Positions 301-52,600 of a stretch of DNA of 64,000 nt are shown here, in pieces (the first letter of the stretch is position 1; the number at the start of each line of letters is the position of its first letter). The translations under genes and the position numbers were made by a program. The DNA comes from Dunaliella salina. Its lineage: Eukaryota; Chlorophyta; Chlorophyceae; Chlamydomonadales; Dunaliellaceae. The notes under the pieces were generated by a model. It saw only the letters and a list, made by a program, of their open reading frames with translations, ran no database searches and had not been told where the DNA came from. The DNA is taken from assembly GCA_002284615.2 (NCBI GenBank), contig MU069451.1:110394-174393 (forward strand). The letters run 5' to 3'.

Positions 301-475
301 ACACACAATTCACCTGAGGCGGCGCTTCCTCTGCTGGAGCCTCCTCCAGGGCAGTAACCCTTACACATGCCCCTCCCTCCCCATTTTTCCACCCACACCC
401 ACCCCCCCACACCGCTCACCTCAGGCGGCACTTACCCTGTTGGAGCCGCCTCTGAGGCAGCAGCTTCGTCCTGCT
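301..475 (-). repeat. Two downstream copies of a MOR1 exon end and donor site
   Basis: The 3' end of the exon at 696-526 (reverse complement of ctcacctcaggcggcgcttc) recurs twice further into the following intron, near 306-345 and 416-460. Both copies keep a GTGA-type donor after the CCTCAG or CCTGAG. The copies differ from the exon at scattered positions, so they are old duplications rather than an assembly echo. Confidence 0.75.
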
Positions 476-525
476 GCACACCCTCCCCACCTCAACCACC
501 CCAACCCCCCATACACACAGCTCAC

Positions 526-2389
526 CTCAGGCGGCGCTTCTTGTGCTGGAGCCGCCTCCGGGGCAGCAGCTTCGTCCTGCTGCGCGCCCGCCTCTGCTGC
601 AGGGCTGCCGTCCTGTTGTGCTTTGAGGGCAGCGATGCGCGCCTGCTCCTTGCGCGTAAGACGCTCGGGTTGGGGCCGCCCCAGGCTGGACACCTCCTGC
701 ATGATGGTTGCGCAGCGGCAAGCATACATGAGGCACTGAATGGATGGTTATGTGCGAGGCCTCCCTGTGCTTGAGCCAGCCAGGTTGAGAATGTCCCAGG
801 CTCAACACCTCCTGCAAGATGCAGCATACATATTTGGTACCAGGGTTGGGTCATTCGCAGGTCTGGGGGGTAGCGAGCGTGTAAATCCGCATTAAATGCG
901 CGAATTGACAATTTATTCGTGCATTTGGAGGGCCATTTTGGGAAGGGGGGGGGTTGGGTGGGAGGGACCAAGGCTCGAACCTGGGACCCATGCCCAACCA
1001 CCCCAAACCACCCCCTGCCACCCCCCAAACCCCACAAACATTAAATCATGCCCAGAGAGAAGGGTCCTGAGTGGGATTATGTCACGGACTTCATTCCTGA
1101 AGGGACAAACTGGGCCAGGCTGGGCCTGCCAAGCAATTTTGACCAACGAATTTTACAGCGCTCTCCAAACAGCAAATTTTAAAGTTCTCGAATTTTACGC
1201 CATTTGTAGCGTTCTTCAAAATTTTTGATTCGTGAATGACTCAATCCTGTTTGGCAATGTGTAGATAGTGATGTGCGCCTGCTCCCTGCAAATGAGCCAC
1301 CCCGGTTGAAGCCGCCCTAAACTTAACACCTCCTGCATGTTTGGTTGCGCAGCAGCATGAATTTGAGGAGCCATGCGGATGGTAATGTGCGCTGGCTCCC
1401 TGTGCTTGAGTCGCCCAGGTGGAGGCTGTCCTAGGCCAGACACCTCCTGCATGTTGGGTTGCGCAACGGAAAGCATACATGAGGGACTGTGCTGATGGCG
1501 ATGCGCACCAGCTCCGTGTACTTGAGTTGACCGGGTGGAGGCTGCACTAGGCCGAACGCCTCCTGCATGTCAAGTTGCGTGGCAGCAGGTATATGAGGCT
1601 TCGTGCGGATGGTGATGTGCGCCTGCCCCCTGCAAATCAGCCGCTGAGGTTGGGGCTGCCTAAGGCGGGACGCCTCCTGCATGTTGGGCTGCGCGGCAGC
1701 AAGTATTCCAATCATCCTGTTACATCCCTACCATGTAAGAACGTATATGAGGCAGTGTGCGGATGGTTATACGCGCCTGCCCCTTGCACATGAGCTGCTC
1801 CGGTTGAGGCTGCCCTTGGCTGGACACCTCCTGCGTGTTGGTGATCGCAGCGAACAAGTGCATGAGGCAGTGCATGAATGGCGCTGCGCGGGTTGCACAA
1901 TGTGTGCCGCTGGGGTTCAGGTTCAGGGGGCTCAGGGGGCTGGGTACCTGTGCTCCTGCGGGCAGGGCAGCAATGCTGACTGAGGCACCCTCGGGAGGGT
2001 ATCGCTGCGCGGGGTGCACTGCGTGAGCTTTTGGGAGGCCCTTTTAGGGGGCCTTTTTGGCTGGACACCTGTGCATCTCTGAGCACAGCAGTATGGTGTG
2101 TGGGTTCCATGGTGTGAGCAGCTTCAACTCAGGGGAACCTTATAGCTGGACACCTGTGCACTGCGAGCACTCCCCACGATACGCATGGCTTTCTGACCCA
2201 CAGAAGCCCAACCACATGGGCACGAAACATGTGTGTTGCACATGGCTGGCGCTGCTGAGCAGGACCACAACTTGCTTCCTAGCCTGGGCATGACTGTTTA
2301 CTACCAAACAGCGACAGCAAATTTGGCAACAATCTGACAACCCCTGATTTTAATTGTTCCCTGTACCTACTTACGTAAGCGTTCGCTCN

Positions 2390-2480
<91 letters not shown>

Positions 2481-4551
2481 GCTGGTGACTGTGCTACATT
2501 TGAAAGGCTGAAGCATACTTGTGCATAAATGCGAGCCCTTACACATCTATCTCTCTCGAGCGCTCGATGGAGGTTACGCGCACCCACCTGCTAGCGACTC
2601 TGCTACATCCAAAAGGCTGAAGCAGTACTTGTGCATGATGGTAAGCGACTCATTGGCGGCTCTTCCGACCGCAGGGTTCTTCTCCTTGAATTTCTCCAGC
2701 AACACCTGCCAGTCAAGACACAGCACATTCAGTTTGGCCCAGCCTGGGTGCCTGCTCCACATCTGGCATACCTCCAGTGCTTTTCTGTCTCCAGTGCTCC
2801 GTCTCCAGTGAGGGTCCAGTGCTCCATCTCCAATGCTTCGTTTCTGTGGACATGCAAGACAGCATGCATACTTGGCCAACCCAAGACTGCTGTGAGCTGA
2901 TCTACAAATGGCTCGGTGATGTGAGTGCTGTCGGAAGGCACACTCACAAAAAAGCTCAATCCTCACCTCTCTCTCTTTGCACTCCAAGGGATCATGGTAA
3001 ATAGAAGCTGAGTCATGCCAAATGCGGAGGAGGAGCATGGAGTTGGCCAAGCAATTTCACCTCTGTAAAACCTCCCCAAGGACGGCCTTGGGACAACCCC
3101 TTGTTTGAAAATGCAAAAACTGCAAAATGACCTTACTCCACTGCCTGATTCAGGTCAGCCAGTAGCAGGAGTCCAAACTTCAGGCAGTTCAAAGTTGCAC
3201 ACATGAGTCTGGACGCTGAGGATATGCACTAAGCTCTGAAAATAGCCTTCTTATTTAACCCGATTCTGGTCAGCCTGTGGCACAGGCTTCCACAAAGGCT
3301 TCAATATTGGGTCGCTATTTGTGATGAATACTTCGGACCGGAGAAAAGCCTGAGCAATTCCCCGCCTGCTCCTCAACACTTGCCCGACCCTACCCCTTGG
3401 TAAACTTCAGAACACCACAACCACCTCCAGGGCACCACAACCAGCTACACCCAAATCTTAAAAAATCCACGCCTGCCTCCGCACCCTAACCAGTTTTTGA
3501 GTACCACTTCCCCTAATCCTTACAATGATCTTCGCCAAGTAAGTTCTGGCAGTGTCTGGGTGCCACTGCCCCCAGCCAAACCCTTTGCAGCGCCTAAGCG
3601 CACCCAAGAAATCCCGAGAAATCCTCACAACCACCTCAGCCTAGCCTTGAGTGCCCCTGGTAGAACCTTTAAATGTTGGCAGTGCCTGTTAACACAGAAA
3701 AAGAAGAATGTTGCAGAAAAAGACCCCTCCCACACCCACCTCCACCAGCCCCATTACAGTGCCCCTGACACATGCCCTTGGCAAAGGCACCAGTGCAATG
3801 CACCGCCTCAGCCACAACAGCAGTGCCTGAACACGCCCAAAGAAGAAGTATGTAATAAAGAAGGCTTCCCCCCACACCAACCTCCACTAGCCCCTTGGCG
3901 GTGCTTGAGTACCCCTGACGCATGCCTTTGGCCAAGGCACCAGTGCAATGCACTGCCTCTGCCACGACAGCGACGTTGTTGTCCTTTGTGATGATCTTCC
4001 GCAGCTCGCGGTTCAGGTCGCCATAGTCGACATCCCTGCATAAGCAGGAACACGCCACAGTATGAGGTTGTGGCCGCTTGTGTGCCCATGCTGTGCAATT
4101 CAAAGAGTGTGAAGATCGGCGTGCAGGTGAGCATGACCGGGGCACTCCTCAAGGATGAGGATGCAAGAACAACGCAGAATGCTTTGGTGGGAACGCCCAG
4201 CACACATCAAAGCCAATGGAAGTGGTCAACTCGCAAGTGAGAAAAGGATTTTTTTGCACATGCATCACTAGCACTCTGTCTTCTTCACGAAGACACAAAA
4301 GCATTTGTTCATTGTGTAGATATCTGCGCAGGTAAAGATCTGTGCAGGTAAGAAAGCCCAGCACTCTGAATTGCAAAAGGGAGCAAGCAAGGGAGGACGT
4401 TTTTGCACAACCCATCCCAGAGTTTGCTGCGGCCTGCAGAAGAGCGTGGCATTCGCACATGCGAAGCCATGGAGACCATGCTGTACCAGCAAATCTGCCA
4501 GCTTCAAATCAAAAGTGAACATGTTGGAACACTTGATACTTTAAATGCACG

Positions 4552-4614
<63 letters not shown>

Positions 4615-7151
4615 GCATGGCCCGCTCGATGTCTTCCTTCATGGCGTCCCTCATCTCCTTGAAGAGTGAGGCCCGGATGACCTCCATGCCCACCCATCGT
4701 GACAGCTCCACCTGCGCACATGCCCTCATTATCTCAGTCTCACATGTGTGTGGACGCCCACTGCCACTGTCTCAGGATGACATCCGCCCTCACTGACTCA
4801 GTCCCACATTTGTCTGCACGCGCACAGCCACTGACTCAGGATGACATCCGCCCACACTGACTCAGTCCCATACTTGTCTGCACACGCAGTCACTGACTCA
4901 GAATGATGTCTGCCCACACCGACTCAGGACCACATTTGTCTGGGCGCCCACAGCCACCGACTCAGAATGATGTCTGCCCACACTGACTCAGGACCACATT
5001 TGTCTGGGCACCCACAGTCACTGACTTACAATGACACCTGCCCACACTGACTCAGGGCCACATTCAAATGTGGTCTGATGTCTAAATGCGCACAGCCACT
5101 GACTCAGGACCACATTTGTCTGAACGCATGCCCTCACTGCCTCCATCCCACATTCCCATATAGGCGTCCACTTGCTTGCGAGCAAGTTAGGAGAGGGGGC
5201 TGCTGAGACCCGACATGCAGCCACAAAGCGCAAGGCAAGCCCGGGCTTGATGGCACTGCCAGTCAGTGAAGGCTGGCTGGCCAGTATGTGTCAAATTTAG
5301 ATGCGTGTTGTTGTTGTTGTTGTTGTTGTTGCAATGGTGAGCAGAATGCTAATGAAAGCATGGGAAGCCAAACGTAGGTTTGGCCAATTCGGTATCTATC
5401 CCACTCATACTTGCTGTGTATTTCCTTTTTTTGCAGTGATGATGTGAAATATATGGCGCATGTACACGGAATTGGCCAACCCTGTAAATATGTGTCTCAT
5501 AGCAATGTGTCACTATCCGCATTGCTCCTGTTACTTCTCCATAGCAAGGACACACTTAGGCCCTGAACGGTCCACATTGTTACTGTCCACTGTGGTTTTC
5601 CGAAACTGCTGTGCTTCGCCATCCATGCTTTCCACCACTCATGCAGTCCAGATGAGGTCATGGGCTGCTGCAAACTCACCACCAGCTCCTTTGCTTTGTC
5701 GCGCGCTTTCCCGTCCTTTGACTCCAGCAATGGGGGCAGGGCCTTGAGGATGGGTTTGGGCTCCACCACCTTGGTTCCAAATTGGCTGCGTAAGCAAATT
5801 GCAACGCAATGGAATGGCTTTACCAAAAACCCTGCCTGAACTTGACACAGTTACTGTGGTACACCGCATGCCATCACAGCAGGTCCCAGGTTTGTAGCAG
5901 TAGGCCGAAAAGGGCCTTCCCCACGTACAATGATATACTTGCATATTTCACGTTCGCAATCAAACGCATGCAATCCTTGTACCCATGCGGGTGCATTCAT
6001 GCACCATACACATAGGCTTGCATGGCCATGTCATGTATGCAGGTGCCTTGGTAGGTGTGGGAGCAAAATGTGCATAATGTGTTCCTTTATGCAAATTGCT
6101 CAGAGAGAGCAAGTGAGCCTCTTTTCAGTGGCACACACTGTTTCATACAGCAATACAAGCTCATGAATTTCAAGCAGGTACACTGTCAATACGTAAGTGA
6201 GAGCAAGTCAAAGAAAATTTAGCTTTCGCATGCACTCCACTTTCCCTCCGGGCCAGAAGCTCAGCTCAGGCTATTGCTCACCTGACAGCTTGCACAAGCA
6301 AATCAATGCACGCCACCGCAACCTTCGGAACTTTGTGCTTGAAGCCCGCAATCAATGCCTCCTGCAACATGAGGGAAGCAATGGGGAGTAGTTTGGGCAA
6401 AGAGCATGCATGGCAACCCTAGAATACTGCCATCATCATTAGATGATGTTCATAGAGCTCCTGTGGTCAAACTGCTGGATGTTAGCAAGTGCATGCAGGT
6501 CCATGCTTTACCGTGACAGCTGGGGCTTGCTCCAGTTCCACATAGTTGAGCAGCACCACTCCAGCTCGCTGCACTGTCGTAATCCTTCCAGCCAGAGCCT
6601 TGTTGATGATATTCGTGCATGTTTTTTCGACACTCCTGCGACATTGGTGAGGAGGATAATGGGGAAGAGGAAATGCAAGCCCATATGGTCAACCTGTCCA
6701 GTCCACTCTTCTGCATCCTTCATCTCTGCAACGTCCATTTGAACTCATTCCTGCCTTCTGTTCTATCTTGCATAAGCTTACCTTGCAACATGTTGTTCAG
6801 TGGCCTTGGCCTGGAACGCTGCCAGGGCATCCAGGGCTTTGTCTTGCGCAGCTGCGTTTGAGTCCTGGACGGCCTTTGGGAACAGGGATGCTGCAGGCAC
6901 ACCAGTCGCAGGTGGTTAATATGAAGCATAAACAGTGGCACCTGCTGGTGCTGTCCAGAACCTGGCACCAGAGCAGCAAGCTTGCCCCTACCAAATTCTT
7001 GCAAGCGGGGATCATTTTCGTCATACACCCCGTTGCAAGCCACGTTGATGTCATCAAAGGCTGCACTGCGCACTTTCCAGTTCGCATGAGCAATACGGTC
7101 AGGCCACGGGAGCTTCTTGGCCTCTGCAATGGCCGTGGCCTCGTCACTCAT
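526..7151 (-). CDS. MOR1: XMAP215/MOR1-family TOG-domain microtubule protein, 5' part
   Basis: Members of this family bind tubulin through TOG (HEAT-repeat) domains and act as microtubule polymerases. Exons read on the minus strand are 7151-6992, 6890-6782, 6635-6512, 6361-6282, 5785-5680 and 4711-4613. They splice in one continuous frame (226 codons) and give a complete TOG1. Landmarks are KLPWPDRIAHANWKVR near residue 13, LFPKAVQDSN, AGRITTVQRAGVVLLNYVELE, the EALIAGFKHKVPKV repeat and GTKVVEPKPILKALPPLLES. Exons 4035-3882 and 2705-2588 give the middle of TOG2 (ELRKIITKDNNVAVVAEA, VLLEKFKEKNPAV). Exon 696-526 (57 codons, PERLTRKEQARIAALKAQQ, then Ala/Glu/Gln-rich) is probably the post-TOG2 linker. 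The start of TOG2 between 4613 and 4035 and its end between 2588 and 696 were not found, and phases show that exons are missing there. The ATG at 7151 begins the family's usual short N-terminus. The gene leaves the window on the left. Family call sure; exon set incomplete. Confidence 0.86.
697..1905 (-). repeat. ~114-bp tandem array copied from the start of a MOR1 exon
   Basis: Units recur with the plus-strand signature cacctcctgcat at about 694 (the exon itself), 807, 1327, 1441, 1557, 1671 and 1824. Spacing is about 114 bp once the inserted element at 841-1249 is removed. Weaker relatives lie near 2065 and 2150. Each unit carries the acceptor (ATGCAG then GAGGTGTCC on the minus strand) plus the first part of the exon. 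Translated units still resemble the exon (MQEV, LG, QP, then a basic stretch). The period is a multiple of three, so reading frames stay open across units. The array lies upstream of its source exon, inside the intron. Confidence 0.8.
841..1249. mobile_element. hAT-like MITE inserted in the exon-derived array
   Basis: The left end CAGGGTTGGGTCATTCGCAG is matched in inverted form by the right end at about 1229-1249 (reverse complement CAGGATTGAGTCATTCAC). Flanks tttggtac (833-840) and tttggcaa (1250-1257) look like a worn 8-bp target duplication. CAGGG ends and 8-bp duplications are typical of hAT elements. No transposase is encoded in the 409 bp. Related ends occur at 47953 and 52630. Confidence 0.75.
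2389..2478. repeat. (CA)n microsatellite with one N
   Basis: About 45 CA units. On the transcribed minus strand this is (GT)n and it directly follows a copied exon end whose last bases are CAGCAG. Confidence 0.95.
2479..2560 (-). repeat. Copy of a MOR1 exon end (TOG2) joined to (GT)n
   Basis: The bases cctgctggtgactgtgctac and the following AAAGGCTGAAGCA-type stretch repeat the end of the exon at 2705-2588 (cctgctagcgactctgctac). The copied donor GT is continuous with the (GT)n tract at 2389-2478. Confidence 0.75.
2706..3727. other. MOR1 intron, no recognised feature
   Basis: Intron between the exons at 4035-3882 and 2705-2588. It includes short repeated phrases (ctccagtgct-like at 2770-2830). 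I see no further conserved coding stretch here. Confidence 0.5.
3728..3805 (-). repeat. Copy of a MOR1 exon end and donor
   Basis: The end of the exon at 4035-3882, including the stretch encoding GALAKGMRQ and the GGAG donor context, recurs here with changes (GAFAKGMCQ). It sits about 80 bp downstream of the true donor. Confidence 0.8.
4547..4612. repeat. (CA)n microsatellite abutting a donor site
   Basis: The tract ends exactly at the exon boundary 4613. On the minus strand the exon end ATGCAG is followed at once by GTGTGTGT, so the splice donor is the first unit of the microsatellite. Confidence 0.95.
4720..5150. repeat. ~60-70-bp minisatellite upstream of a MOR1 exon
   Basis: Six or more units built around cactgactcaggatgaca and ccacatttgtctg. 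The array lies just upstream (in transcription) of the exon at 4711-4613. The unit is only weakly like that exon's acceptor, so its origin is unclear. Confidence 0.75.
5302..5332. repeat. (GTT)n microsatellite
   Basis: Nine or ten GTT units inside a MOR1 intron. Confidence 0.9.
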
Positions 7152-7369
7152 GGTTAAAGAAGTCCTGAATTCCTTCTTGATCCTACTTCAAGCCATTTTC
7201 ATTTCAATGAATTGAAAAGCGCACAACAAATATGCAACCTAGACTTATGTTCCGCGAAAGAGACGGTAAAGAAAGAGAGGTTTACATTTTCTAAAAGATA
7301 CCCTTTTATTCACATACTGTAATGAATGGATGGTCTCCCGCGGGAAAGCGCAACTCCGATGAGAGTCAA

Positions 7370-7393
7370 GATTGGTCAAACTCGTGACCAATC
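7370..7393. promoter_or_regulatory. CCAAT-containing palindrome upstream of MOR1
   Basis: GATTGGTCA, a 6-nt spacer and TGACCAATC form a perfect 9-bp inverted repeat about 220 bp upstream of the MOR1 start codon. It carries a CCAAT box on each strand. Regulatory function is inferred from position and motif only. Confidence 0.35.
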
Positions 7394-8432: not shown

Positions 8433-9071
8433 CAGAGGTGGGCAACAGGCCCAAATTCCTGAAAATGTTCTTTCCCGCCAATATTTTCCAAATCTGACCA
8501 GGCCACCTATCAAAATATGAATAAAAAACACACCAAGAAATTATGAAAATCGGTTGACCCCATATCACTCTCTAGGCCTCAGATCACCCTAGAATGGCCC
8601 ACAGCTCCACCCTGGGACCATTTTTCACCCCCAAAATGTTTTCTTGATAACCCTTATGTGGTATTCTAACATCCTGCATATACAAAAGTGGGAATGAAGA
8701 AGGTCAAGAACTGGTACTTTTGGCACCCCGAGTGCTGGCTTTTCTTTAAGGGAAATGGCTGAAATTCAGTACCTGACCAACCACTGGGTCTCTTCACTCC
8801 ATTTTTTTTTGCATTGGTATGTTTTTGGTTTAAGGACACCAAGTCATTAAAATCATCCGATTTGGTACAGTGGCTGGTCAGATATGGTGGGTGCCTGCTC
8901 AAAAAGTAGGGTTCACATTTTGGCAAATAGTAGAAGTGGCCCCGAGTCTTGATTTTCAAATTAAGTAGCTATGGAAAACAGGCTACCATTTGATGCTAAG
9001 CACAAAAATTACCAAGTCGCAGGGAACATTTCAAAAGGACCCCTGTTTGGGGCTTTCGTCGCCCACCTCTG
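8433..9071. mobile_element. Non-autonomous Mutator-like TIR element, copy 1
   Basis: Ends are inverted (CAGAGGTGGGC at 8433 and GCCCACCTCTG ending at 9071). They are flanked by an exact 9-bp duplication, atactttct, at 8424-8432 and 9072-9080. A 9-bp target duplication is typical of Mutator-like elements. The 639-bp body has no transposase and aligns along its length with the element at 20420-21205. Confidence 0.85.
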
Positions 9072-11373: not shown

Positions 11374-11391
11374 TTTGGCCCGGTTTTCCAG

Positions 11392-13072: not shown

Positions 13073-13743
13073 TCAATTATTAACCCTCTGTGGGCACACA
13101 GAGTCGCCTACTCGGAACCACCTAGGTGCCAGACCCTTCGGCACTGTTGACTGCTTATCACCACCTCCGCCTCCCATGTGCTGTCCTGTCACTTCATCGC
13201 TAAGACCAGAAGGAGCCGCAAGGTCTTCACTGCCCTCGGTTGAACTTCTCTGGATTGGCAAGCAGCCTGCCAGAGGGCCAGAGCCTTGATCGACCCCATC
13301 TGCTGTCAAGAGGATGCCGAAGTGCATGCGCCCATTGTGCCGCCTGTACTGGGCAAGCGCCAGAAGCACCTCAGGCTTGCCACGGGTGCCTGTGCTCTGG
13401 TCAACCTAAGAGCAGGAGGCGGGCACAGAAGCACAGGTTGCTTTGCGACATGATGCCCGTGCTCTAGTCAACCTGGGAAGGCACAAAGATGCCTATGCAA
13501 GATGACACTAGTGCCCAGGTCCACCTAGGAGCTGGAGGCAAGCAGAGAAACAGGGAGTGCTGTGCAAGAGGACACCAGCCCTTTAGTCAACCTGAAACAG
13601 CAGGAAGCGGGCAGAGAAGCACAGGGCAGGATGACGAGAAAGGAATGCAAATCACTGCCCGGGTCATGACAGCAAAATAGAGGGCACATATCATTTCAGA
13701 AACACATGGCGAGGGTGAAAATGTGTGCACGCGCACACGCACA

Positions 13744-13929: not shown

Positions 13930-16900
13930 GCAAATAGAAAAAAAAACTGTGTCACACCTGCAGCATCTCGCAGCGCGGGCACGTCCCCAGCACATTGCAG
14001 CTGCAGGTCCCAATCTGGAAACAGAGTGTGCAAGTAAAGCATGTAATAGCACTTCCGCCAAGAATGCTAGCTAATTGACAATACATGAAAAAGCACTCAG
14101 CTGGTGAGATGGCTAGGTTGTAACAATACCCATCACCAGAAACCGAATTTCCCAGTGTGTGAGCAAAACTCATGGGTCTCTGTTTTGGAAGTCTTAGGTT
14201 CAACCGGTAATTTGCGCTGGCATTGCAGCATCGGTGCGCAGACTGCCACACCATTAGAGGCAATCATACATAGACTGTTATTTTTTGCTTGAGCAGAACT
14301 GGCATCAATAGACTGCTCCTGCCCCTTCCCTTAATCCACGCGGCCTTTGGCTTGCGTAGACTTTTCTTTTCTTTTCTTTTTGCTCCTGCTTCTTATTCCC
14401 AATAGAATGCTGCTTCCCAAGAGACTGCTCCTGCTTCATATTCCCACTCGACTGCTGCTTCCCAAGAGACTGCTCCTGCTTCATATTCCCAATAGGCTAC
14501 ACCAAGATTGAGCAGACCTAGGATCAATAGGCTGCTGTCTGTCCCTCCCAGCTTGAGCAAAACTGGGATCAATACACAGCACCTGCTTCTTGTGATCAGG
14601 GCATAGGGGCTGCTTTTGCCCTTGAAAGGTCAGCATGCACAGGGTCCCAACTCATGCATGCAACTTTGAACTGCCATAACTTTGCACAAACTGTGGGTAC
14701 CAGGATGAAAAAGAGTGTGTTAAAAAGCATTTGTTAGCATTACTTTTTATTCTGGTACCAATTTTGTTAGCTTTACTTTCTATTGTTGTACCAGGGCTCT
14801 GTGGTGAGCTGTGTGTGGTCAAAGTTTGGCTGGAAATCCAGTCAAACCTCAGAATTTCAATTTCAACCGCAATTTTTGAATTTAGGCCTAAAAACGGTAG
14901 AAAAGGTGTTATAATTGAAGAATTGTGAATGAAAGCTCCTGAGAAGTGCTCCTTGACCGAACATAGGGGTGAAAGCTTTCGGGTCCACCGTACCTCCCAG
15001 AAGTTCTTGCCAACCCTGACCCAGCCAGACCATCAATTGACCCCATTTTTTTCCAATGGTGTCTGTTACACCACTGCTGCACACCTTAGGGTAACTATGA
15101 CAAAATGGGATTGGGTGGAAAATTCCCATTTTCCGCCACATGGCCTCCTTTTCCCCTTTTTGGGCGCCCTAGCACACACACCTAGCCGGTTTTTTGCCAC
15201 AACTTTTTTTGCAGAGTCGTGTCTTCTGATCGCAGAAGAGGACTGCACAAAAACGTTTGGGGGCGGGGTGGCCAGGGTGGCTCAGAAAAGTTTCCTGTGA
15301 CAGACCCCCCCAGAATGGCCAAATTAGGACCCCCTGGTCAGCATGCGGGAACTGCTTTTGCTCCTTATGAAGATCAGTACCTGGAACTACTCCAGCTCCT
15401 TGTGACCAGTGCACAGGTGCTGCTACTGCTCCTGTAGATTACCAGCGGACAACAAATGCTCCGTCCCTCGTGATCAGTACACACGGCTCACTTGTCTCCT
15501 TGTGACCAGCGCACACAGAAATTTGCCTAAACGATGGAAGCATGACCACCACATACCTCTGCACGGGCCAAGCAGTTCTTCTCATGCACCAGGAAAGCAC
15601 CAGCAGTTGAAGAAGTGACCAGCGCACACATAAATTTGCCTAAACGATTGACATATTGCCACCCATGACCTGCACATGCGCCCAGTGGTCCTCGTCATGC
15701 GCCAAAAAGCACCAACAACTCACACCCAGCGCACACAGAATTTTGCCTGGGCAACTAACCACCCTGCACATGGGCCCAGTGGTCCTCCACATGAGCAAAG
15801 AAAAGCACCAATAACTGGTGGCCAGCGCACACAGAATGATGTCTGAACAATGGAAGCGTTGCAACCCCATACCTGCACACGAGCCCAGTGGTCCTCCTCA
15901 TATGCTGGAAATCCGCCAACAACAAAATTGGGCCTGAACCTGCATTTCATGGGGCAGAAAGCAAGGCATTCAGCTCACCAACTCTTAATCTAAGAACTGC
16001 AGCACCTGCTTGCGGTCCAGGGAGGAGAAAAGCACAGGACAGTGCCAGCAGGGTATCGTCTGAGGAGGGCTTTACGTCCAAAACAGATATGGCTTAAATT
16101 CTTTTTTTCCTGGCCATGATAAAATTTGCAATCTGAAACGAAGCCCATTTGCCACGAGACAGCATTTCATAGGCAGAGCTCTCTGATTCATGCGCACATG
16201 CAAACAGACGATTTCATGTTTGCTTGCAAATGGTCACACTGCAAATAGCTCTCCAATTCATGCGCACATGCAAACAGACGATTTCATGTTTGCTTGCAAA
16301 TGGTCACACTGCAAGTAGCTCTCATATTCATGCGCACATATGCAAACAGACGATTTCATGTTNCGATTTCATGTTTGCTTGCAAATGGTCACACTGCAAG
16401 TAGCTCTCATATTCATGCGCACATATGCAAACAGACGATTTCATGTTTGCTTGCAAATAGTCACACTGCAAGTAGCTCTCATATTCATGCGCACATATGC
16501 AAACAGACAATTTCATGTTCGCTTGCAAATAGTCACACTGCAAGTAGCTCTCATATTCATGCGCACATATGCAAACAGACGATTTCATGTTTGCTTGCAA
16601 ATGGTCACACTGCAAATAGCCACACGGACAAAAATTGATGTGTGGATAAGCCGCAGTAGATTCGCTGCTTGATGACTCTTGCACTAACATGTCTCAAACC
16701 AAGCCTGAAGCACGCTTTACACCAGCAGCCCTGCATGTCACCCCTTTCCAAAAAGCTTCATACCAGTAGCCCTGCATGTCGCCCCTTTCTAAAAAGCGTT
16801 ACACCAGCAGCCCTGCTTGCCGCCTCTTTCCAAAAAGGAACCCATGATGCATATTTGTGCCTCAACACAAAACCAGTGGCTCAACACAAAACCATAACTC

Positions 16901-29321: not shown

Positions 29322-30095
29322 GTAATGACGGCAATCCTGCCATATGTCAACATTTAGATCTACAGTCATCAGAACCGCACAAGGTGCTGCTGCTAATGGC
29401 ATTGATGTAGTCTGACCACCATGCTACCCACCAAGTGTATTATCGCCACAGAAGTCAACAGCATGCATCGCTGCTACTGCTGCTCCTGCAGAGCAGAATA
29501 TTTACCTAATTTGTCTTAATGTAGAAAAAGAATTATGTGTATGGCTGCCGCTCGTGATGATAATGACTCCATTGATAACCATGCCATGTACCTCCTATGA
29601 TGACTCTTTCATGATGGCCTGTTACGACTCCAATGATCACCATACCGACTCACCAGTTGTTAGGATGACTGCAATGTTGATGGCCCCTTGAATGAAGACT
29701 TCAATGATGATTACCACGATCACTTTCCTTACAATGGCACATGGCCATAGAGTTGGCAGCATGCACCACTGTTGCTGCAGCTGCTGCCCCTGATGGTCAC
29801 CATGCACCTGATTTAGCACGGCCACTATGTGTATCCCACACATAATCTCACAACAGGACATGGCCACGAAGTCCGCATCATGCACTTCTGCAGCTGCTGC
29901 AGCGCCTCTGACGGCTTCCATGCACCAGACACATTGAAAGAGTGCGACCACTGCGTGTTTTGCGCACCTTGTAATATGACATGGCCACGAAGTCAGCAGG
30001 GTGGCGAGACAGGTCTGGGGGGCTGGTGGCACAGCTCTTGGCAGCATCTAGCAGCACCAGCCACCTGTGCTTCTGAGCTGAGTGGTCTGACTCAA

Positions 30096-30140
<45 letters not shown>

Positions 30141-30447
30141 TTGTAGCAGCGCAGCCTGCGCAGCTCCGTAATGCGTCAGGCTGAGGGTCGCACGTACAGG
30201 GTTCAGTGCCAACGCCCTGGCTCTGCACCCGCTTCACCAGCCCCAGGTCAAAGCGCCGCCCCGAGAAGTTGCACTCATGCGGCATCGCAAACAGGTGGTA
30301 CACACACCCCTCGTTTGGGGGGTCACTGCATTCATCAGTGTTGTCATTGTTTGCATGCATGTGCGAGGGTTGGAGGTCAGACTCAGGGGTCTCCCCATTC
30401 TGCTGTGGCAGCACCTGCTGCTGCTCCTGCTCCTGCTGCTGCTCCTG

Positions 30448-30537
<90 letters not shown>

Positions 30538-31462: not shown

Positions 31463-31501
<39 letters not shown>

Positions 31502-34052: not shown

Positions 34053-36121
34053 TCAGACAACTTGGAGGGTGTCTCGGCTGTTTGAGGCATACTTGGTGGG
34101 GGGCAAGTTCTTGTGAGTCCCCCAATAAATACCACAGCACAATAAATACCACAGCATGTGTAGGCGTCCTTGCAAACAGGGAGAAGAGGAAAACGCATGG
34201 TTGAGGACTCAAGGAATAGAAGAGGATAGAAGACTTCATAAACTCTCAAAATCATTCAGAAAAGCAGGCCGCATTGCTTTAAAGGCCATGTGATCAAGAT
34301 GAAATGCACACTTTCAAACCTGCAATGAAAATGCATCATTAATTAATGCTGCAAAGCCATATAACTTGCAAAGCGCTAACAATCTGCAGGGGTAATAGTG
34401 CGGCAAGGCAAGAGACATGTGCAAATCAAATTGGAAATAACTCCTTACCGTTTTGTAAAACAGTTTTTTGCGATGCCCCAAGTCCCAGAGTTTTGCACGC
34501 ACACGTCTCACATCCTCCTTATCAAAAAAGTTAGCAGTGTACACGCATACAAACTGCAGGCAACAATTAAGTGAAATGCAAGTCTTCACCGAGGGGCTTC
34601 TTTTTTTGCTTGTATGCTGTGCCAGGTCAGATGTTGAATTTCGCTTTGGGCGATCGCGTTCACAAAATCAAACAACAGTTGACGCCCAAAAATGCATGCA
34701 TCTCTTGTGCTTGCCTCTACAAAAAGGATTGGTGTAGACAGACCTATCAATAATCACCTCTTTTTTTTTGGCCACCAGAAACTTTAGCACAGGTACCGAG
34801 GCCTACAGAAACCACCTCCCTAATGGATGAAACGAATAAAAAGTACTTCGGTTTCTGATGGTGGATGATCTGGAGAGCAGCACAGGAGGACAGCACACTT
34901 TAGAGTCAAACGAACCCGTACCTTGCAATTGCTGCCCAGACGTTGTCTATTTCATTGCTTGGGACCCCGGTGATTAGCCATTTACCATCAAGGACGTTAT
35001 GCTTAAGAGATAGCCTGTGAAAATGGAAATGTCAAATTTTGAGCAAGCAGCACAAATGCAGGACACGATGTGATTGAATGCCACAGCACTCCCTTGTACT
35101 TTGTCTCCTCTCTGGTACCAGCAGCATGAAAGCGGGAATGCTTCTGAAGCAATCTGTACAAACAAATGCACCCTGCATTATCATAGCTCACCTGTCCAGA
35201 TCTTCTGCACCTGGTGGGCTTCTGATCCCCTCCTGTGCATATCATATTGGACTGGTAGCAAGTTATCTCACATATGCACGATGAGTATTGTCCACACTAA
35301 TTGCAGGTGGTAACTGAAATGTGTGTGTGCTCTGTGCAGCAAAGCGTCCAGATCACTTGTGTTGTAGCAACTTGGAATGGGGCCCTGTTGTTCAAACTCG
35401 TGTTTGCATTAAACAGCACTCTGGCAGAAGTGCAACTGCGCCTCGTGTGCCATGCTCGAATCTAACAGCAAGCACTCAAGCGCAGCTTGCTTCAAGCACA
35501 CCTACGCCTTGTGTTCCATGCTAGCATTAAAAAATGCATTCCGGCGCAAGCGCACCTGCGCCTCGTGTTCCAATCGCTGCCATTCTCCCACAAGGCGGTC
35601 CACCCTGCTGATGACACACAAACTACTGCTGTGAAGTTGCATGTGCAAGGGTGCAATAGCAGTGTGGCCCCCAGGTAAGTATGCTGAATCACCATCACCT
35701 GCTCTCCTCATTGAAATAAGCATCATCTGGCAGTGTGTGGTGTCGGCGTAAGCCCGAACAGTTGTGAACGTAAATGTAGCCACCTTTGCATGTGCAGGGG
35801 AAAGCAAAAACCATGCTTTTGGTTGAGTCGAGATTGGTGATTTTTCCAGGTTGGCAGCGTGGCTCAAGGAAAAAATAAAGATTTAAACAGAATAAGCGCG
35901 GGACCCCGGGGTGGTATTGCATGTTGGGCAGGTCATGGTACATGTAGGAACTTTCTACATGCCATGTCTGTGTGAGTCTATTGGATAAAGGCAGGGAGGG
36001 ATTGAGGTTTTCGGGGTTGTCAATGGAAGGAACAGCGCTGTGGACAAATCGCCAAGACCAATGAGGCCACATCTTGCAATTTGTAATGAGGACACCTCCT
36101 GCAGGATCGTGCTTGGATGGN

Positions 36122-36203: not shown

Positions 36204-36359
36204 GCACAAGCACATGCACTCACACCCACACCCATATCCCCCCACCCCACCCACACACATACACACATCTTGCAATGCGGTTTGGATTCACACACACACC
36301 TTGTGCAGAATTGTGTGCAGAGGGCGGATTCTGACGCAGCCAAGCCTCCAGATCCTCAG
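34053..36359 (-). CDS. C11orf68/UPF0696 (BLES03, DUF1917)-like protein, frame disrupted
   Basis: A conserved eukaryotic family of uncertain function whose known structure resembles eIF4E. Exons: 36359-36300 (AEDLEAWLRQNPPSAH), 35783-35699 (GGYIYVHNCSGL), 35604-35556 (VDRLVGEWQRLEHEAQ), 35014-34922 (LKHNVLDGKWLITGVPSNEI, then DNVWAAIA), 34819-34758 (EVVSVGLGTCAKVS), 34553-34449 (FVCVYTANFFDKEDVRRVR, ending YKT) and 34168-34053 (DAYTCCGIY, then LPPTKYASN in another frame). The order matches the family. A short exon is missing between 35556 and 35014 by phase. Exon 34819-34758 contains A9 and its phase does not fit the next exon. In the last exon a 17-bp tandem duplication at about 34124-34157 shifts the frame; beyond it the family-like end and stop (34053) lie in the shifted frame. 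Possibly a decaying gene or assembly error. Confidence 0.78.
35430..35552 (-). repeat. Copies of a C11orf68-like exon end and donor
   Basis: The exon 35604-35556 end (plus-strand gcgcacctgcgcctcgtgtt, then ccaat) recurs near 35438-35455 and 35500-35520 as caactgcgcctcgtgtgcc and cacctacgccttgtgttcc. Confidence 0.85.
36121..36210. repeat. (CA)n microsatellite with one N
   Basis: Lies 90-180 nt inside the intron after the 36359-36300 exon, whose donor itself reads GTGTGTGTGTG. Confidence 0.95.
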
Positions 36360-36361
36360 CT

Positions 36362-36725
36362 GCATTGTGAAGTGCAACAGTGGATCGCAAAGTGCTGTAC
36401 TGCAAGGTGCGAGGGTGGATGCTAAGGCAGCCAGGCCTCCAAATCCCCAACAGCATTGTGAAGTGCAACAGTGGATCATAAAGTGCCGCATTGCAACATG
36501 CAAGGTGGGTGCTTTGGCAGCCAAGTCTCCAGACCCTATCTAGCTAGTCAGGGGACCTTTCACCATCCAGCCACCTGTCCAGGACTCAGGAACTGAAATT
36601 ATGGGCATTCTATCACGTCAAGAAGTCCAACAACACCCTTAATGCACTTAGCCTCTGGCATGCGTAGACTTTCCTTTTTTTTCCTCCAGATCCTCAACAG
36701 CATGGCGAAAGGCAAGCCTCGAGGT
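36362..36725 (-). repeat. Copies of a C11orf68-like exon acceptor region
   Basis: The exon start (plus-strand gcctccagatcctcagctgc) recurs near 36440 (gcctccaaatccccaacagc), 36520 (tctccagaccctatc) and 36690 (cctccagatcctcaacagc), each with flanking attgtgaagtgcaacagtgg-type intron sequence. Confidence 0.82.
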
Positions 36726-42650: not shown

Positions 42651-42654
42651 GAAA

Positions 42655-44939: not shown

Positions 44940-46830
44940 ATAATGCTGCAACAAGTGTGGAAACATACCGCACACACCCCTTTTCACCCCCCGGCTATCC
45001 AGGCCCCCATTGCTGCTGCCTGCCTTAAAGCTACTAAATTCAGCACCAGACGTATGCTCCCACATGACATGCTTCCGGACATCATGCGCTTCTCTTACCT
45101 AGCCATTGAGGCCTACATTGCTGCTGCCCTGGGCCTTGAGGCACTTTGCTGCCAGGAATCCAACACGCGACGTGCTTCAGTATGACATTCTCCCCCATGA
45201 CATGCGCTGCACTTAGCCGGCCATCAAGGCCCCCAATGCTGCTGCGTGCTTTGAGACCCTTCGCTGCCGAGACCCTTCGTTCCCTTCGAGAATTCATCAC
45301 ATGACATGCTTCCACATGACGTGCTACCCAGTGATAGAGGCCTCCAATGCTGCTGCCCTCGGCCTTGAGGCCTTTTGCTGCCAAGAATTCAACATGCGAC
45401 GTGCTTCAATAAAACATACTTCCACACGACATGTTTCCACATGGCATGCAATATGCGCTGCACTTACCTGACAATTTAGGCCCCCATTGTTGCTGCCTGA
45501 GACCCTTTGCTGCCATGTACTCAGCATATGACATGCTTCAATATGATATGCTTCCTCACAAGATGCGCTGCGCTTACCTGACCATTGAGGCCCCCATTGC
45601 TGGTGCCTGCCTTAAGACCCTTTGCTGCAAAGAATTCATCACATGACATGCTTCAACATGGCATGCTTCAACATGGCATGCAACATGTGCTGTACATACG
45701 CGGTGATCGAGGCCCCCAATGCTGCTGTCTGCCTTAAGACCCTTCGCTGTCAAGAATTCACCACACGGCGTGTTCAAGACATGACATGCTTCCATATGAC
45801 ATGTACTGACCCGGCCAATGAGGCCCCCATTGTTGCTGCCTGCCTTGAGGCCTTTTGCTGCCGAGAATTCAACACGCGACGTGCCTCCACATGACATACT
45901 TTCACATGACATGTTTCCACATGGCATGCAATATGCGCTGCGCTTACCTGACAAGTGAGGCCCCCAGTGCTGGTGCCTGCCTGAAGACCCTTTGCTGCCA
46001 AGACTTCACCACATGACATGCTTCAACACGGCATGCTTCCACATGGCATGCGACATGTGCTGTACATACGCGGTGATCGAGGCCCCCAATGCTGCTGCCT
46101 GCCTTAAGACCCTTTGCTGCCAAGAATTTATCACATGGCGTGTTTCAACACGACTTGCTTCCATACAACATGCGCTGCACTGACCCGGCCTATGAGGCCC
46201 CCATTCTTGCTGCCTTGGGACCCTTTGCTGCCAAGAATTCATCACACGGCATATTTTTATATGACATGCTTCCAAACAGCATGCGCTGCACTGACCCGGC
46301 CAACGAGGCCCCCACTGTTGCTGCCTGCCTTGGGACCTTTTGCTGCCAAGAGCTCATCACATGACGCGATTAAACATGACACGCTTCTACATGACAAGCA
46401 CTGCACTGGCCGGCCGTTGAAGCCCCCAGCGCTGCTGCTTGCCTTGAGGCCTTCTGCTGCCAAGAATACAGCACATGACATGCTTCCACATGACGTGCCC
46501 TATACTTACCCAGTGATTGAGGCTCCCAATGCTGCTGCCTGCCTTAAGACCCTTTGCTGCCAAGAATTCATCACATGCGTGTTTCAAGATATGACATGCT
46601 TCCACATGACATACGCTGCACTGACCCGGCCAATGAGGCCCCCACTGTTGCCGCCTGCTTTGAGACCCTTTGCTGCCAACAATTCATCACATGGCGTGTT
46701 TCAAGATATGACATGCTTCCATACATCCTGCCCTGCACTTACCTGGCCATTGAGGCTCCCATTGTTGCTGCCTGCCTTGAGGTCCTTTGCTGCCATGTAC
46801 TCAGCATAGGACATGCTGCAAATCGTGGAC
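44940..46830 (-). repeat. ~115-bp array of about 16 units, each with acceptor and donor
   Basis: Units contain plus-strand ttgctgccaagaattcatca and acctggccattgaggccccc. Reverse-complemented, each unit reads TTCTTGGCAG as an acceptor-like end, then a 45-50 bp exon-like body (AAGGGTCTTAAGGCAGGCAG), then a GGCCAG/GTAAGT donor-like junction. Spacing ranges from 97 to 136 bp. No neighbouring gene was recognised as the source. Confidence 0.85.
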
Positions 46831-47589
46831 TGGTGCAGCGAGGAGCAGGCAAAAGAGCAAGTCAGTCACTGTATGCCACGAATGGAGGGTTGTGCGAAAG
46901 GAGGCCCACTGCTGCCATGCATTCAGCAAACGACATGCCGCAAACCGTGGACTGGTGCAGCGAAAAGCAGGGAAGGGAGCAAGTCAGGGAGCAAGTCACT
47001 GAACACAGTAAATTGGGGGGTTGAATGAAAGTTAATATGCCGCACATGATTGTCATCTTTCTGGTGCAAAATCTGTCCTACTTTGCCCCCCCTCACCCCC
47101 CCAGAAGTATTTATGCCTGGAGAAAAATTGCATGTCCCTACATTGGCAATAAGCTACCTATCGCCCACAAAATTTGAAGGCGTGTGTGCTTAGACTATAA
47201 GGGTGCTTAAATTATAAGGGTAAGCTCCAGCACCTGGAACCCTGACAGGAAGCACTGATCCTTACACTCTGAGGAAAGCTGATGCTCAAGGGCGCATTAA
47301 GTCTAACTGTTAATGATCTCAAAAACCCAACAAAAAATGAAATCTTCTTACTAGCATGTAGACTCCTTTCCCGTACGCAATGAAATTCTGCGGTGCTCAT
47401 GTGTACCACACTCCTCAAACACGTCTTTTGCGGGATGTTGCCAGAGCTGTACAGCTCCCCCAAAAGCAGGCATACTCTTTACATGCTCCCAGCACAGGAG
47501 TCCCAAAACCTTAATGCTTCAGGTAGAATATGAAATGTAGATTTTAGGCAATTGGAGCTCCATTGTTCAGGGTTTGGAGAATTCTGCCT

Positions 47590-47945
47590 AATCAGCTGTG
47601 GCATGAGCCCTACTTTTTGGCCACCCAACCACCATTCTGGACCACCTACTGCACCAATTGGGTGACTTCTGGTGTTTTGGAGTCCTGGAGGCTGAAAAAA
47701 CACCATTGCAAAAGAAATGGAGTGAAAAGACCCAGTGGTTGGTCAGATACTAAGTTTCAACCATTTCCCTCAGCAAAAATCCTGCACTGGGGGTGCCGCC
47801 TTTCTTCCCACGCCAGAATATGCAGGATGTTTGTATTGCATATGAGGGTTACAGGTCCACAAGTTTAGGAGTGGAAAAAGTGGTCCCAGGGTGGAGCTGT
47901 GGGCCCCAGGATGATCCAAGACCAGGTTAGGGATCCGATGTCCTC
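47590..47945 (-). mobile_element. Mutator-like element fragment, reverse orientation
   Basis: gagccctactttttggccac, gacccagtggttggtcagat and gtggagctgtgggccccagg are reverse-complement relatives of 8433-9071. A second short piece with gctgtgggccccaagatgat is at 48118. Confidence 0.65.
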
Positions 47946-47952
47946 TGATTCA

Positions 47953-48030
47953 GGGTTGGGTCATTCGCCAGTTTGACAAATAAATTTGCCAATAATGCGA
48001 AAAAAAAGTGAAATTTGATGAATTATGCAA
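47953..48030. mobile_element. hAT-like MITE left-end fragment
   Basis: cagggttgggtcattcgcca is nearly identical to the left end of the element at 841-1249. The right end was not located. Confidence 0.55.
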
Positions 48031-48825
48031 CGCATGTTTGCCTGTAGACGGGGGGTGAAGACGGGGGTACCATCACCACCGTCAAGGACCCTCACATTGG
48101 AGGCCCCCCCAACCTCAAGCTGTGGGCCCCAAGATGATCTGATACCAGGATCATGATCCGACGCCTAATTCCTTGTTTTTGGCTGGATGCAGTGCTATTG
48201 TTTGAGATAATGGTTGGATGGAAATCAGGAAGAAGTCCGGCAAAGAGCATGTTTAGCAATACAGGGGAATCGTTGTCCGGCTCTGGGGTGTTGCTTTCAT
48301 TTCAGGTTGTGAAGCAGTGTCCCGGTTCTGTAAATTCAAACAAACTAATCATGAAGTGTATTGGGCCTACACTCCTCACAAATGCTTTTTGATAGGATAT
48401 TTTTCCCTTACTTCAATTAATGTTTAAGGTTGGATTGCCTCTTTGTCTCCAAGTGAAGACAAAGCAGCAAAAACAGAGGCACAATTGACTCAAGTGTCAT
48501 AAGAGGGTTGCATGGAGGCTAGTGCATAGTCCAAGTGCTGTAATGCCTTGAGTTGCTGTCCAGAGCCTTCTTTTAATGTTCAAGGAGGCCAGTCAGGCTC
48601 CCCCCACTTCACCAGCCACACTCGACAGTGCTTGCCATTTGCATGTGTCCTTGTGTGCCTTGACAATTGCTGAACAGCTCATCACGTGCCAGGCATGCAT
48701 ATGTGCTGAAAAGTTGGCATGTGGAGACACAATGTGTGGTTAGGCATCAATTTTCGCAAGAAAGTTGGCATGTGGAGACACTATGTGTGGCTCTGAGGCT
48801 GCTTTGCATCCATTTTGAAAAAATG
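48031..48825. other. 3' flank of AMMECR1
   Basis: Transposon debris and a short duplicated phrase gttggcatgtggagacac (48713 and 48765). No gene recognised. Confidence 0.45.
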
Positions 48826-49616
48826 TTATTTGCATTTCCCGACTTGCACCCAAGGACCCGTACTCTTGGAAACAAGCTGCTCTTGGGCCGCATTATCATG
48901 CTGCAATGTTAGATTTTGCAGGGGGTTTGGCTCTTGGGGAAGAGCGCCCCTGGAACTCTTTGTCCAAAATGTGTGCAAGTCTATGCAGAAAGTTACTCGC
49001 TTTGCAACCAATGCATCCTTGGCAACCTGAACACATCCTCAGGTAATGGTTGAGCTTGTGCTCCAATCAAAGCAGAAGTGAGGCCAATAGGTGGCCTGTG
49101 CGAGAAGCGGGGGGCTTTTGACCATCTCGAGGGACACATTTTTGTGCCGCAATTGCAAGCACAGACAGCTCTACACCTAATTTCAAGTTGAGGGTGCTGT
49201 CCAACAATGGATTCAGGAATATGGAGGCATAGTTTGGCTCACTGTGCCTTGCATGGAAAACATTCCAGCATCTTCCTGAATCCTTTCCAGATTACCAACT
49301 TATTGTAGCCCACCCCCAGGTTTTTAACATTCTTGACGAGCAAAAGCAGCAGCAACCCAACACCCTTTACAGGTCCTGGTATGATGCGGGAGGTGCAGAC
49401 ACATTTTCAAAACTGTCTTGTGTGACCATTTGGTCTGACATGGGAAGGGTAGGGAGGGGGTGGGGTGGAGGGGGGGATCCCTAAACCTTAAAACCTATTA
49501 AGGGCAGGCATGGTAAAAAAAATCGCTTTTGGCTGCAAATCATCTGTGCTCCACCCCTATCAACAAAAGAAAGGTGTCCTGAACTAACTTATCATAGGAC
49601 ACAACTTCACACAGAG

Positions 49617-49687
<71 letters not shown>

Positions 49688-52600
49688 GGTAGCGGATGAC
49701 TTGCAGGGAGTTCCGTAAAGCTGCGTTAGGGCGACTCTCGCAGCCTGACTTGCGTATGAGGGCATCAATGGTTTGGACCACGTCCCATCCCTGAGCAATG
49801 CAAGCCATGGCCACAAAGAAGGCTGCTGTCCAGTTATGAATGCATTCTGTCCAGTTACAAATGCATTCTTAAGCAATGCAAGCCATGGCAGCAACAAAGG
49901 CTGTTGTCCAGTTACTGAAGCATCCCTGAGCCATGCAGGCCATGGCAAAAAAAAGGCTGCTGTCCAGTTACGGAAGCATCCCTGAGCCATGCAGGCCATG
50001 GCAGCAACAAAGGCTGCTGTCCAGCTACGAAAGCATCCCTGAGCCATGCAGGCCATGGCAGCAAAAAAGGCTGCTGTGCAGTTGAAAAAGCATCCCTGAG
50101 CCATGCAAGCCATGCAACAAAAAAGGCTGCTGTCCAATTATGAATGCACTCTTGAGCAATGCAAGCCATGGCACCAATGAAGGCTGCTGTCCAGTTACGA
50201 AAGCAACCCTGAGCAGTGCAGGCCATGGAAAAAAGCAGCAGCTGTCTTGTTACCAATACGTGTGGAATTAAGACTGGCAGGCAACACAGCTCAGTTTTCC
50301 TCAACTTGAATGGAACCTGGGCCATGGCCAACAGCGCACACCATAATAAGGCTGTGATAAATCATCGCCAAATCAGTGTACAGAATGTAAGCCATTGCAA
50401 GCAGCACATTGAGTTGAGGCTCATCTTGAAAAACTGAATTAGCAGTGCAGTTTGAAATGGATAGGCTGCGCAGTTTGAAATGATAAGGCAGCATAGTTTG
50501 AAATGAATAGGATGCTGTTGACCTCTTGAAGCAGCGTAGATTGCAATGAATATGCTGCTTTCAAACTCTTGACTTTAATGGAAGCCCGGCAAGTAGCACA
50601 GCTGACAAATAAGTTGATTAATCAATAATCCCATCAAAATAGAATTTGAGCTGTGAAGGTAGGTGTTTCACTAATTTTTTAGTTGGATTTGAGCCATGGC
50701 AAGCAGCACAGCTGAATTTGAGCAATGCTTTCATTTTTGCTTAAATTGGTCTGGTTACAGGCCTCTAAGTCTCCGCTCAGCTGCCCTTGTAGGCGGATAA
50801 AGCGATGTAATCTTACCTTTTACCTTACCTTTCCAGATGAATTGAGCCACGGCAAGCAGCACAATGAGGTAAAGCAGATGTTTAGCTAGTACATGCTTAA
50901 GTTGAGAAGGCTGCTGTTGACCTAATTTAACCAAAATGGAACCTGAGCCACGGCAAGCAAAGCAGTTTGCAATGGTCAGGGCTGCCCACACTCCTGGAAG
51001 GAGTTCCAGCAGTGCACTACATAGAAGCTGCACAAGAAAGCAGGTCATCGATAGAGCACAGGGTCAGAAGTGATCAAGGAGGGCAAGGGCAAAGGGAAAA
51101 TCAATCAGATCAAAGGCCCATATCCTTTTTCTAAGGCGGAAAACCGGTGGGGTCAAATCGCACTTGTGTGGCTTGGTCGGATGTGCGTCGACCTCCTGAA
51201 ATCAGGAGGTCGGGGGTTCGACCCGCTTAGATGCCCTTGTAGGCATATACAGCGGTAACACTTCCTACCTTCCTTCCTTTTCTAAGAAGGACATCAACAA
51301 TGATACGTCTTTCCCCCCAAACAAACCACAGGAGCCACTCACCTGTTCAGGAGGTACATCTGGCAAGAATGTGGCGGTCCGCAGGCAATTCAACTGGGGG
51401 TCCACAAACTCTATGATGATGCCATGCTTGCCCACTTGCCAGTCTTCCCTGTGAGGGCAAGCAAGTTTCATGAAAGCTCTTGCCCAACACATTCCAGCAT
51501 GAAATATCATGCTTACCAATCAATGCCTGTGCCAAGAAGTTGAGCGCCCTGCCCAAAATCGAGGTGCATGAAACCTTGCCATGCACAACAGCGCATGCAA
51601 AGGGAATTTGAGAACAGGGGGTTGTGCTGAAAGGTGCGCAGGTGTACAGTGAGGTATACTGAAATTGCTTCATGTTGAGGAAAAATGGAACAGTGTCACA
51701 CAATGTGTGCATGTTGTCGGAAATCGATAATGCCACTCACGCAGGCGAGAAGGAGTGACGCGAAAAATGGTGTGATAATGTGCAAGCATTCTGGTTTATG
51801 AGACAATTCTACTGGTTTCAATCCGGAGGTCAGGGGTTCAATTCCGCTAAGATGCCCACTTGAGGCAAATATGGCGATGTATCCTTACCTTATGAGATGA
51901 TGCCGATGGTAAACATTGAACAGAGACCAGTTCCAGTAAGAAGGAAAATTTGCATGCCCTCTTTGGATCCAAAGACAGCATGCAAATTATCCTTCTTGAA
52001 AGAGAACACTTTATTCTTTTGCTGATGCTGACGCATGAGGCAAGGCTCAAGGAGGCCTGCTGATCTAGAGACGGAAAAACAACCCTCTACTTCATTCATT
52101 CCAGAAAGAATGGTGCCTGCTTAAATAAGCACAGTCTGTTCTGCATCCAGCACATTTTCTCATGTGTTTCATTGTTGCTGCGCTTCATGAACCCCTCTGC
52201 CATCTGGGCTTGTCAAACATTCCACAGTTCTGCACCTGGAGTTGCCTCTAACAACACTTGCCTTTGACAACACTTGCCTTTGACAACACTTGCCTTTGAC
52301 AACACTTGCCTTTGACAACACTTGCCTTTGACAACACTTGATACTCCCTGCATTGCACATCCTCTCAACTCATTTTCCTACAGACAACTTTGCAAAATGT
52401 CACCAAATTACCCACCCACACACACAAAGAGCCTTCACGCAGGGAGAGAAAGGAATACTGTAGAGAGTTGCACTTGTACAACTCTCTACAGGAGGCGGGA
52501 GCGCTCTCTCCAAAGAAATAGTACTGCAACCAGTGCAGCCCAAAAATACGTATCTCTACATTGGCGCATCAACCATGCAAAGCCCTGCATGCCCTTGTTT

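Follow-up and report, generated by a model that had tools for sequence, protein, structure and literature searches.

Why should the introns of a green alga be filled with tandem copies of the very exon edges that bound them? The question is raised by a 64-kb stretch of the Dunaliella salina genome (C16:110394-174393, contig MU069451.1; this whole stretch is the window, and positions below count from its first base), in which a sequence-only reading had listed 18 ranges where a segment spanning a splice junction recurs just inside the adjacent intron. Most of these ranges hold genuine arrays. In genes chosen without regard to repeats, local duplications span exon junctions more often than uniform placement would give, and the excess at junctions in the tested genes, 2- to 3-fold, is probably real. 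The overall account that we consider probable is that the arrays are 'mirages', i.e. short direct tandem duplications straddling an exon edge, which may originate in break repair and would pass through a splicing filter.

Self-BLAST of the window (E<=1e-3) returned 106 direct and 10 inverted repeat pairs lying no more than 3 kb apart, and the output of Tandem Repeats Finder comprised 99 rows. Each of the 18 ranges was aligned to 220 bases on its supposed parent side, with 100 block shuffles as control, and 17/18 outscored all 100 shuffles (best-alignment identity 0.73-1.00). This test detects local repetition: in some ranges, for example 18755-19200 and 15430-15870, the exon is outmatched by another copy of the array. 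The exception was 49791-50260, which scored below 84/100 shuffles because its repeat holds only ~5 exon bases and the listed range omits the parent; what had been described as an acceptor-type array is a real 57-bp array (49786-50256, minus strand; Tandem Repeats Finder and alignment) that lies upstream of an exon and repeats the tail of an intron, down to its CAG, together with ~5 exon bases. The arrays had been attributed to all four genes of the window, two of which were identified, an XMAP215/MOR1-type gene and a molybdenum-cofactor sulfurase-like gene, both on the minus strand.

Copies overlapped the boundary of a modelled exon in 11/18 ranges, namely 301-475, 697-1905, 2479-2560 and 3728-3805 in the XMAP215/MOR1-type gene and 13411-13625, 16920-17530, 18755-19200, 24345-24425, 26030-26528, 27240-27465 and 28170-28700 in the sulfurase-like gene, the tie of 26030-26528 to its exon being weak (6-7 exon bases). 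An unlisted boundary array at 19514-19744 brings the arrays at modelled exons in the window to 12, including the weak one. The ranges 15430-15870, 22500-23447, 25635-25835 and 36362-36725 are genuine repeats whose parent exon lies outside the modelled set, while 29735-29905 and 35430-35552 are supported by matches of 21 and 20 bases, respectively, and gave no self-BLAST pair at E<=1e-3. The orientation that had been proposed holds at the modelled exons of both identified genes, with donor-type copies directly downstream and acceptor-type copies directly upstream; the boundary copies of exons R7-R9 (XMAP215/MOR1-type gene) and of M5 and M9 (sulfurase-like gene) sit on the intron side, and GT or AG is present in most of them. 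Clusters are denser in the two identified genes (21 in ~25.5 kb) than in the remainder (6 in ~33 kb, excluding 45-50.3 kb), a difference that is suggestive only, as some of the remainder may contain genes. Rfam, tRNA and phage searches of the window found nothing, and the adjoining 20 kb on its low side reads N.

Two dynein genes on other contigs, chosen through a Pfam domain search and not through repeats, provided an independent test, which covered their readable pieces. Among the 120 relatives listed, the best identities were to the dyneins of the green algae Chlamydomonas sp. UWO 241 (70% over 45% of the query) and Chlamydomonas reinhardtii (65% over 41%), in keeping with a chlamydomonad-like host. 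Alignment of the UWO 241 dynein placed 36 exons over 39.6 kb of the main piece, and the spliced model using the outer splice sites runs for 1441 codons with no stop. Self-comparison of this piece gave 109 direct pairs at distances of up to 3 kb, and its only 3 inverted pairs are all farther apart than that; 16/35 of its clusters span a junction and 17/64 junctions are covered. Three other dynein pieces contributed 4/9, 1/4 and 6/7 junction-spanning clusters, so that 27/55 local duplication clusters span an exon junction in the pooled pieces. Translated searches showed exon starts and ends recurring beside the full exon at several dynein exons, and about a quarter of the intron bases of the main gene lie inside detectable local duplicates. 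A link of duplication to GC content is a possibility in these pieces (GC ~0.56-0.57 in exons and 0.47-0.50 in non-exon sequence). The dynein counts leave out the uncertain exons 18, 19, 20 and 26 of piece A. In the pooled count, pieces B, C and D also lack their outermost sites, and B its last exon. A stretch with no protein match (L032) stands outside the counts, as do three further stretches with 2, 0 and 3 clusters and a fourth that reads N throughout (L038). The cluster rule, the 6-base overhang, the cut between young and old events and the extremes used for the exon-share test were chosen during the analysis.

The copies are direct, with founding periods of 60-170 bp in the main dynein piece and up to 228 bp elsewhere (array units ~60-230 bp), and arrays hold two to ~nine of them, usually differing from one another by 5-30%. 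Periods fell into the three classes modulo 3 in the proportions 10, 13 and 12 of 35; multiples of three, the hallmark of coding tandem repeats, are thus not favoured. Both boundary types are affected, 33 donor-type and 38 acceptor-type copies having been aligned from dynein pieces A and B and the window (a few rows doubtful). GT was kept in 21/33 copies, compared with 19.3-24.1 expected from local divergence, and AG in 30/38, compared with 22.4-26.3; copied GT and AG are neither clearly purged nor strictly kept, and the idea that decoy splice sites are purged found no sign in their survival. Identity between copies and parents was 83-85% in exonic and ~76-77% in intronic parts, as would be predicted if constraint acted on the parent exon alone and left the copy to drift. 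Across the 28 rows that cross a junction (a whole-exon copy enters twice), exonic sequence made up 0.37 on average and never more than 0.65; with a uniform null of 0.45, this shows no pull towards the exon, and exon-biased duplication was rejected. These units include no fewer than 37 nt of intron. The chance that uniform placement leaves the two zones (exonic share >0.65 and intron <37 nt) empty is 3e-4 and 9e-4, the thresholds having been set from the data. At acceptors, a minimum of 37 nt of intron would fit the need for a branch point and pyrimidine tract.

How many junction-spanning clusters should chance alone supply? Some are expected because such events spare the protein. A neutral forward model in which duplications fall uniformly, those that damage coding sequence are removed, the rest decay, and copies are detected as in the data yielded ~6-8 junction clusters out of 34-38; the observed 16/35 of the main dynein piece was reached in 0/120 neutral replicates, and 16 junction clusters in 0/96 replicates of a second version. 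Adding 25% junction-placed events gave 15.5/37.7, which reproduces the data. For the pooled pieces, uniform placement without detection bias predicts 8.3 junction clusters against the 27 found, and the earlier proposal of a recurrent, junction-enriched duplication that lengthens introns is supported here.

The rival that survives best, although we judge it unlikely, is ordinary random local tandem duplication, in which events within exons are purged and the junction enrichment merely reflects the longer recognisability of old copies. Junction copies do stay detectable longer because their conserved exon half slows decay: with real sequences at divergence 0.2, 0.50 of junction events but 0.114 of intron-only events were detected, and an old burst would mimic the excess. 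The detection advantage amounted to ~1.35-fold with uniform ages and 1.82-fold with old events predominating linearly, which raises the expectation to 10.6 (P 6e-7) and 13.4 (P 6e-5) clusters respectively; stronger biases of 2.5-fold and 3-fold would raise it to 16.8 (P 0.003) and 19.0 (P 0.018). Events younger than 0.1 substitutions per site still span a junction in 14/35 cases, compared with a placement share of 0.115-0.20. With exons masked, coverage by duplicates was 0.12-0.14 within 60 bases of junctions and 0.29 beyond 400 bases, whereas the closest neutral setting gave 0.09-0.14 and 0.44-0.45, so that coverage near junctions, taken relative to that deep in introns, is above neutral. Uniform placement alone is therefore disfavoured by simulation, young events and the masked-exon ratio.

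Several points weigh against a junction excess, or against its interpretation. Intron-only duplicates are plentiful, 28/55 dynein clusters spanning no modelled junction, and a 4-fold detection bias would raise the expectation to 22.7 (P 0.15), account for the excess and rescue uniform placement. The P values take clusters as independent, which clusters within one gene are not fully, and the test base consists of the two dynein genes and the two window genes. Absolute coverage near junctions with exons masked is little above neutral, the ratio alone being different, and old events, had they come in a burst, could still make the excess look larger than it is. AG survival is somewhat over expectation, and differences between copies peak at codon position 3 (0.170/0.139/0.256 for positions 1, 2 and 3), a peak not foreseen under strict neutrality and perhaps due to base composition or to changes inherited from the exon. 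The two cleanest young window arrays have apparent microhomologies of 0 and 2 bases, too few cases to indicate a mechanism. Thus, of the claim that duplication is junction-focused, the enrichment probably stands, while the process is not confined to junctions.

That the copies are functional, serving as alternative exon ends or regulatory decoys under selection, appears improbable: the AG survival and the third-position variability would fit this idea, but periods show no frame preference, 7/37 copies are frameshifted, GT survives at the neutral level, and divergence is as for neutral sequence with the parent exon alone constrained. A mobile, introner-like family inserting at splice sites would likewise produce repeats at many exon edges; we hold this to be very improbable, as each array copies its own local exon edge with no shared family sequence, and a search of the genome (284.9 Mb, 1403 contigs; simple and very common words skipped) with one array, 301-475, recovered only itself and a neighbouring copy, in contrast to the shared dispersed sequence of introner elements. 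An assembly artefact, which the sequence-only reading had raised against itself and which the single N and N runs adjoining some (CA)n tracts might suggest, is just as hard to credit, since the 5-30% divergence between copies is unlike assembler stutter and the pattern recurs on three contigs.

Under the preferred account of mirages formed by duplication and filtered by splicing, closely spaced breaks or nicks on opposite strands would be repaired by fill-in and end joining to give a tandem duplication, such events being more frequent in gene bodies. Copies stay in the intron beside their parent, where use of the outer splice site would leave the protein unchanged; selection on splicing would retain units with at least ~37 nt of intron, and multi-copy arrays would enlarge later through slippage or unequal exchange. 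Break repair as the source of the duplications is a reasonable candidate that we hold tentatively. More doubtful is a mutational process directed at exon-intron junctions in this algal lineage, acting via nicks tied to transcription, chromatin or splicing. If it did operate, it would be a main engine of intron lengthening, turning exon edges into intron furnished with ready-made decoy splice sites.

The exons and arrays described below lie on the minus strand. The XMAP215/MOR1-type gene is named from a TOG domain match above the Pfam cut-off, in a reading frame that runs through the first coding exon (6992-7151), and its exons were delimited by eye. Exon R9 (526-696, by eye) is duplicated at both ends, with two donor-type copies of its end, both carrying GT, at 258-525 (self-BLAST and alignment) and acceptor-type copies of its start at 697-1889 (period ~114 bp, AG kept in 5/5 aligned copies; Tandem Repeats Finder, self-BLAST and alignment). 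Self-BLAST and alignment also revealed a donor-type copy of the R8 end at 2472-2587, in which the copied GT leads into a long (GT)n tract, and one of the R7 end at 3679-3881, which keeps its GT. A 64-bp array at 4721-5127 (Tandem Repeats Finder and self-BLAST) lies ~10 bases upstream of exon R6 and was classed as intron-only. Over 35% of the frame at 6723-7187, a EukProt entry (P0002) that bears the name Pelagomonas calceolata is 96% identical, and this protein continues through the position of intron 1, which suggests that the entry is mislabelled or a contaminant and has retained the intron. Of the eight long (GT)n tracts of the window, seven are on the gene (minus) strand, and three begin right after CAG at a donor or copied donor (positions 2391-2478, 4557-4612 and 49618-49685; also 31464-31497). 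Such tracts at donors were considered as a related effect and set aside, being rare in the dynein genes, where 1/8 shorter runs starts at a modelled donor.

Pfam searches with ten exon readings of the molybdenum-cofactor sulfurase-like gene gave one match above cut-off (MOSC_N); the remainder of the assignment was made by eye, against what we take to be the features of this family. Copies at its modelled exons were, unless noted otherwise, delimited by self-BLAST and alignment. They comprise an acceptor-type copy at exon M12 (13406-13625, exon start by eye); a donor-type array at M11 (16914-17534, period ~135, GT kept in 1/4 aligned copies); five donor-type copies of the M9 end (18759-19353, also found by Tandem Repeats Finder), with GT kept in 5/5 and most ~91-93% exon-like; a previously unlisted acceptor-type copy of the M9 start that has lost its AG (19557-19744); a donor-type copy of the M8 end that has lost its GT (24340-24494); two acceptor-type copies of the M6 start, AG being lost in both (27105-27487); and acceptor-type copies of the M5 start with AG kept in 1/3 aligned copies (28118-28662). 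The array at the M7 end (25976-26551; Tandem Repeats Finder and self-BLAST), with units of 62, 124 and 160 bp, is the weak case already mentioned, and at 29857-29998 alignment gave a weak 21-base match (95% identity) between the intron and the end region of exon M4. Repeats whose parent lies outside the modelled set are a 113-bp array at 15499-15901 (Tandem Repeats Finder and self-BLAST), a local repeat cluster at 22423-23535 (self-BLAST) and a local repeat pair at 25398-25706 (self-BLAST and alignment). Long CAG tracts on the gene strand (30097-30139 and 30415-30536) give a polyglutamine reading beside conserved molybdenum-cofactor sulfurase sequence.

Elsewhere in the window, alignment showed, at 35430-35572, brief copies resembling a donor (GGCGCAG/GTGCGC and similar sequences) that are too weak for the BLAST threshold, and a 92-bp repeat pair with its parent junction outside the modelled set lies at 36315-36531 (Tandem Repeats Finder and alignment). 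A ~120-bp array at 44990-46987 (Tandem Repeats Finder), not on the earlier list, has units in which exon-like sequence is joined by an acceptor-like end and a donor-like start, and looks as if one whole small exon had been multiplied. A dispersed repeat (8433-9071 and 20420-21122) is 77% alike over 707 bases, with a partial inverted copy near 47604-47916, and the open frame at 62991-63998, possibly part of a retroelement, contains an RNase H domain above the Pfam cut-off.

If the junction excess holds genome-wide, it would provide a concrete, datable route to longer introns and spare splice sites. Long introns have been noted in related chlamydomonad algae, without a mechanism in the text available to us (PMC8226300), and a junction-directed process, if true, could account for their unusual length. 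The arrays also offer two natural tests, one of how the spliceosome bypasses near-identical copies of its own sites ~100 bases away, and one of the proposal, made for lancelets, that mirages can become new introns (PMC3087553).

The sequence-only reading knew of no described repeat class with this behaviour; the algal arrays are in fact of the same class as the mirages of lancelets, as far as the accessible portions of the two lancelet papers describe these. Such mirages are known there from a handful of genes, namely the globins BflGb6 and BflGb9 and Adh3, with reverse transcription-PCR support for normal splicing (PMC3087553), and further from troponin C and PGBD5 (PMC3902484). Three defining features are shared: a segment spanning the exon-intron boundary is copied in tandem (the 27 dynein clusters and 12 window arrays above), 5' and 3' boundaries are both affected, and the repeats are minisatellite-like, imperfect and often present in several copies. 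Mirages are further marked by undisturbed regular splicing and by a copy number that differs between haplotypes or individuals. The algal arrays differ in that every one of the four tested genes has them, in that their excess at junctions was measured, and in having been read from the DNA of one assembly. Tandem repeats near intron-exon junctions are also on record in the green algae C. reinhardtii and Volvox, with units of 1-50 bp, mostly GT/AC in introns (PMC3887541); they likewise concentrate at intron ends, although the accessible part of that survey describes no copying of exon edges, and the present units are mostly longer. Rogers-type intron gain, as in the potato RdRp case, also involves tandem duplication including splice signals or exon-intron structure, but makes a new intron from an exonic duplicate with AGGT, whereas here existing introns lengthen (PMC4974935, as far as its available text goes). 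Small tandem duplications by CST and Pol alpha-primase break repair, reported for induced breaks in mammalian cells, are similarly short and direct, and natural insertions in plants have been proposed to arise via nearby single-strand breaks; the available text describes no link to splice junctions (PMC8355091). Among the matches listed by literature searches, from whose coverage subscription papers were mostly absent, no paper reports algal mirages. The kind of repeat is thus already known from lancelets, and what is new in Dunaliella is the lineage, the high density and the measured junction bias.

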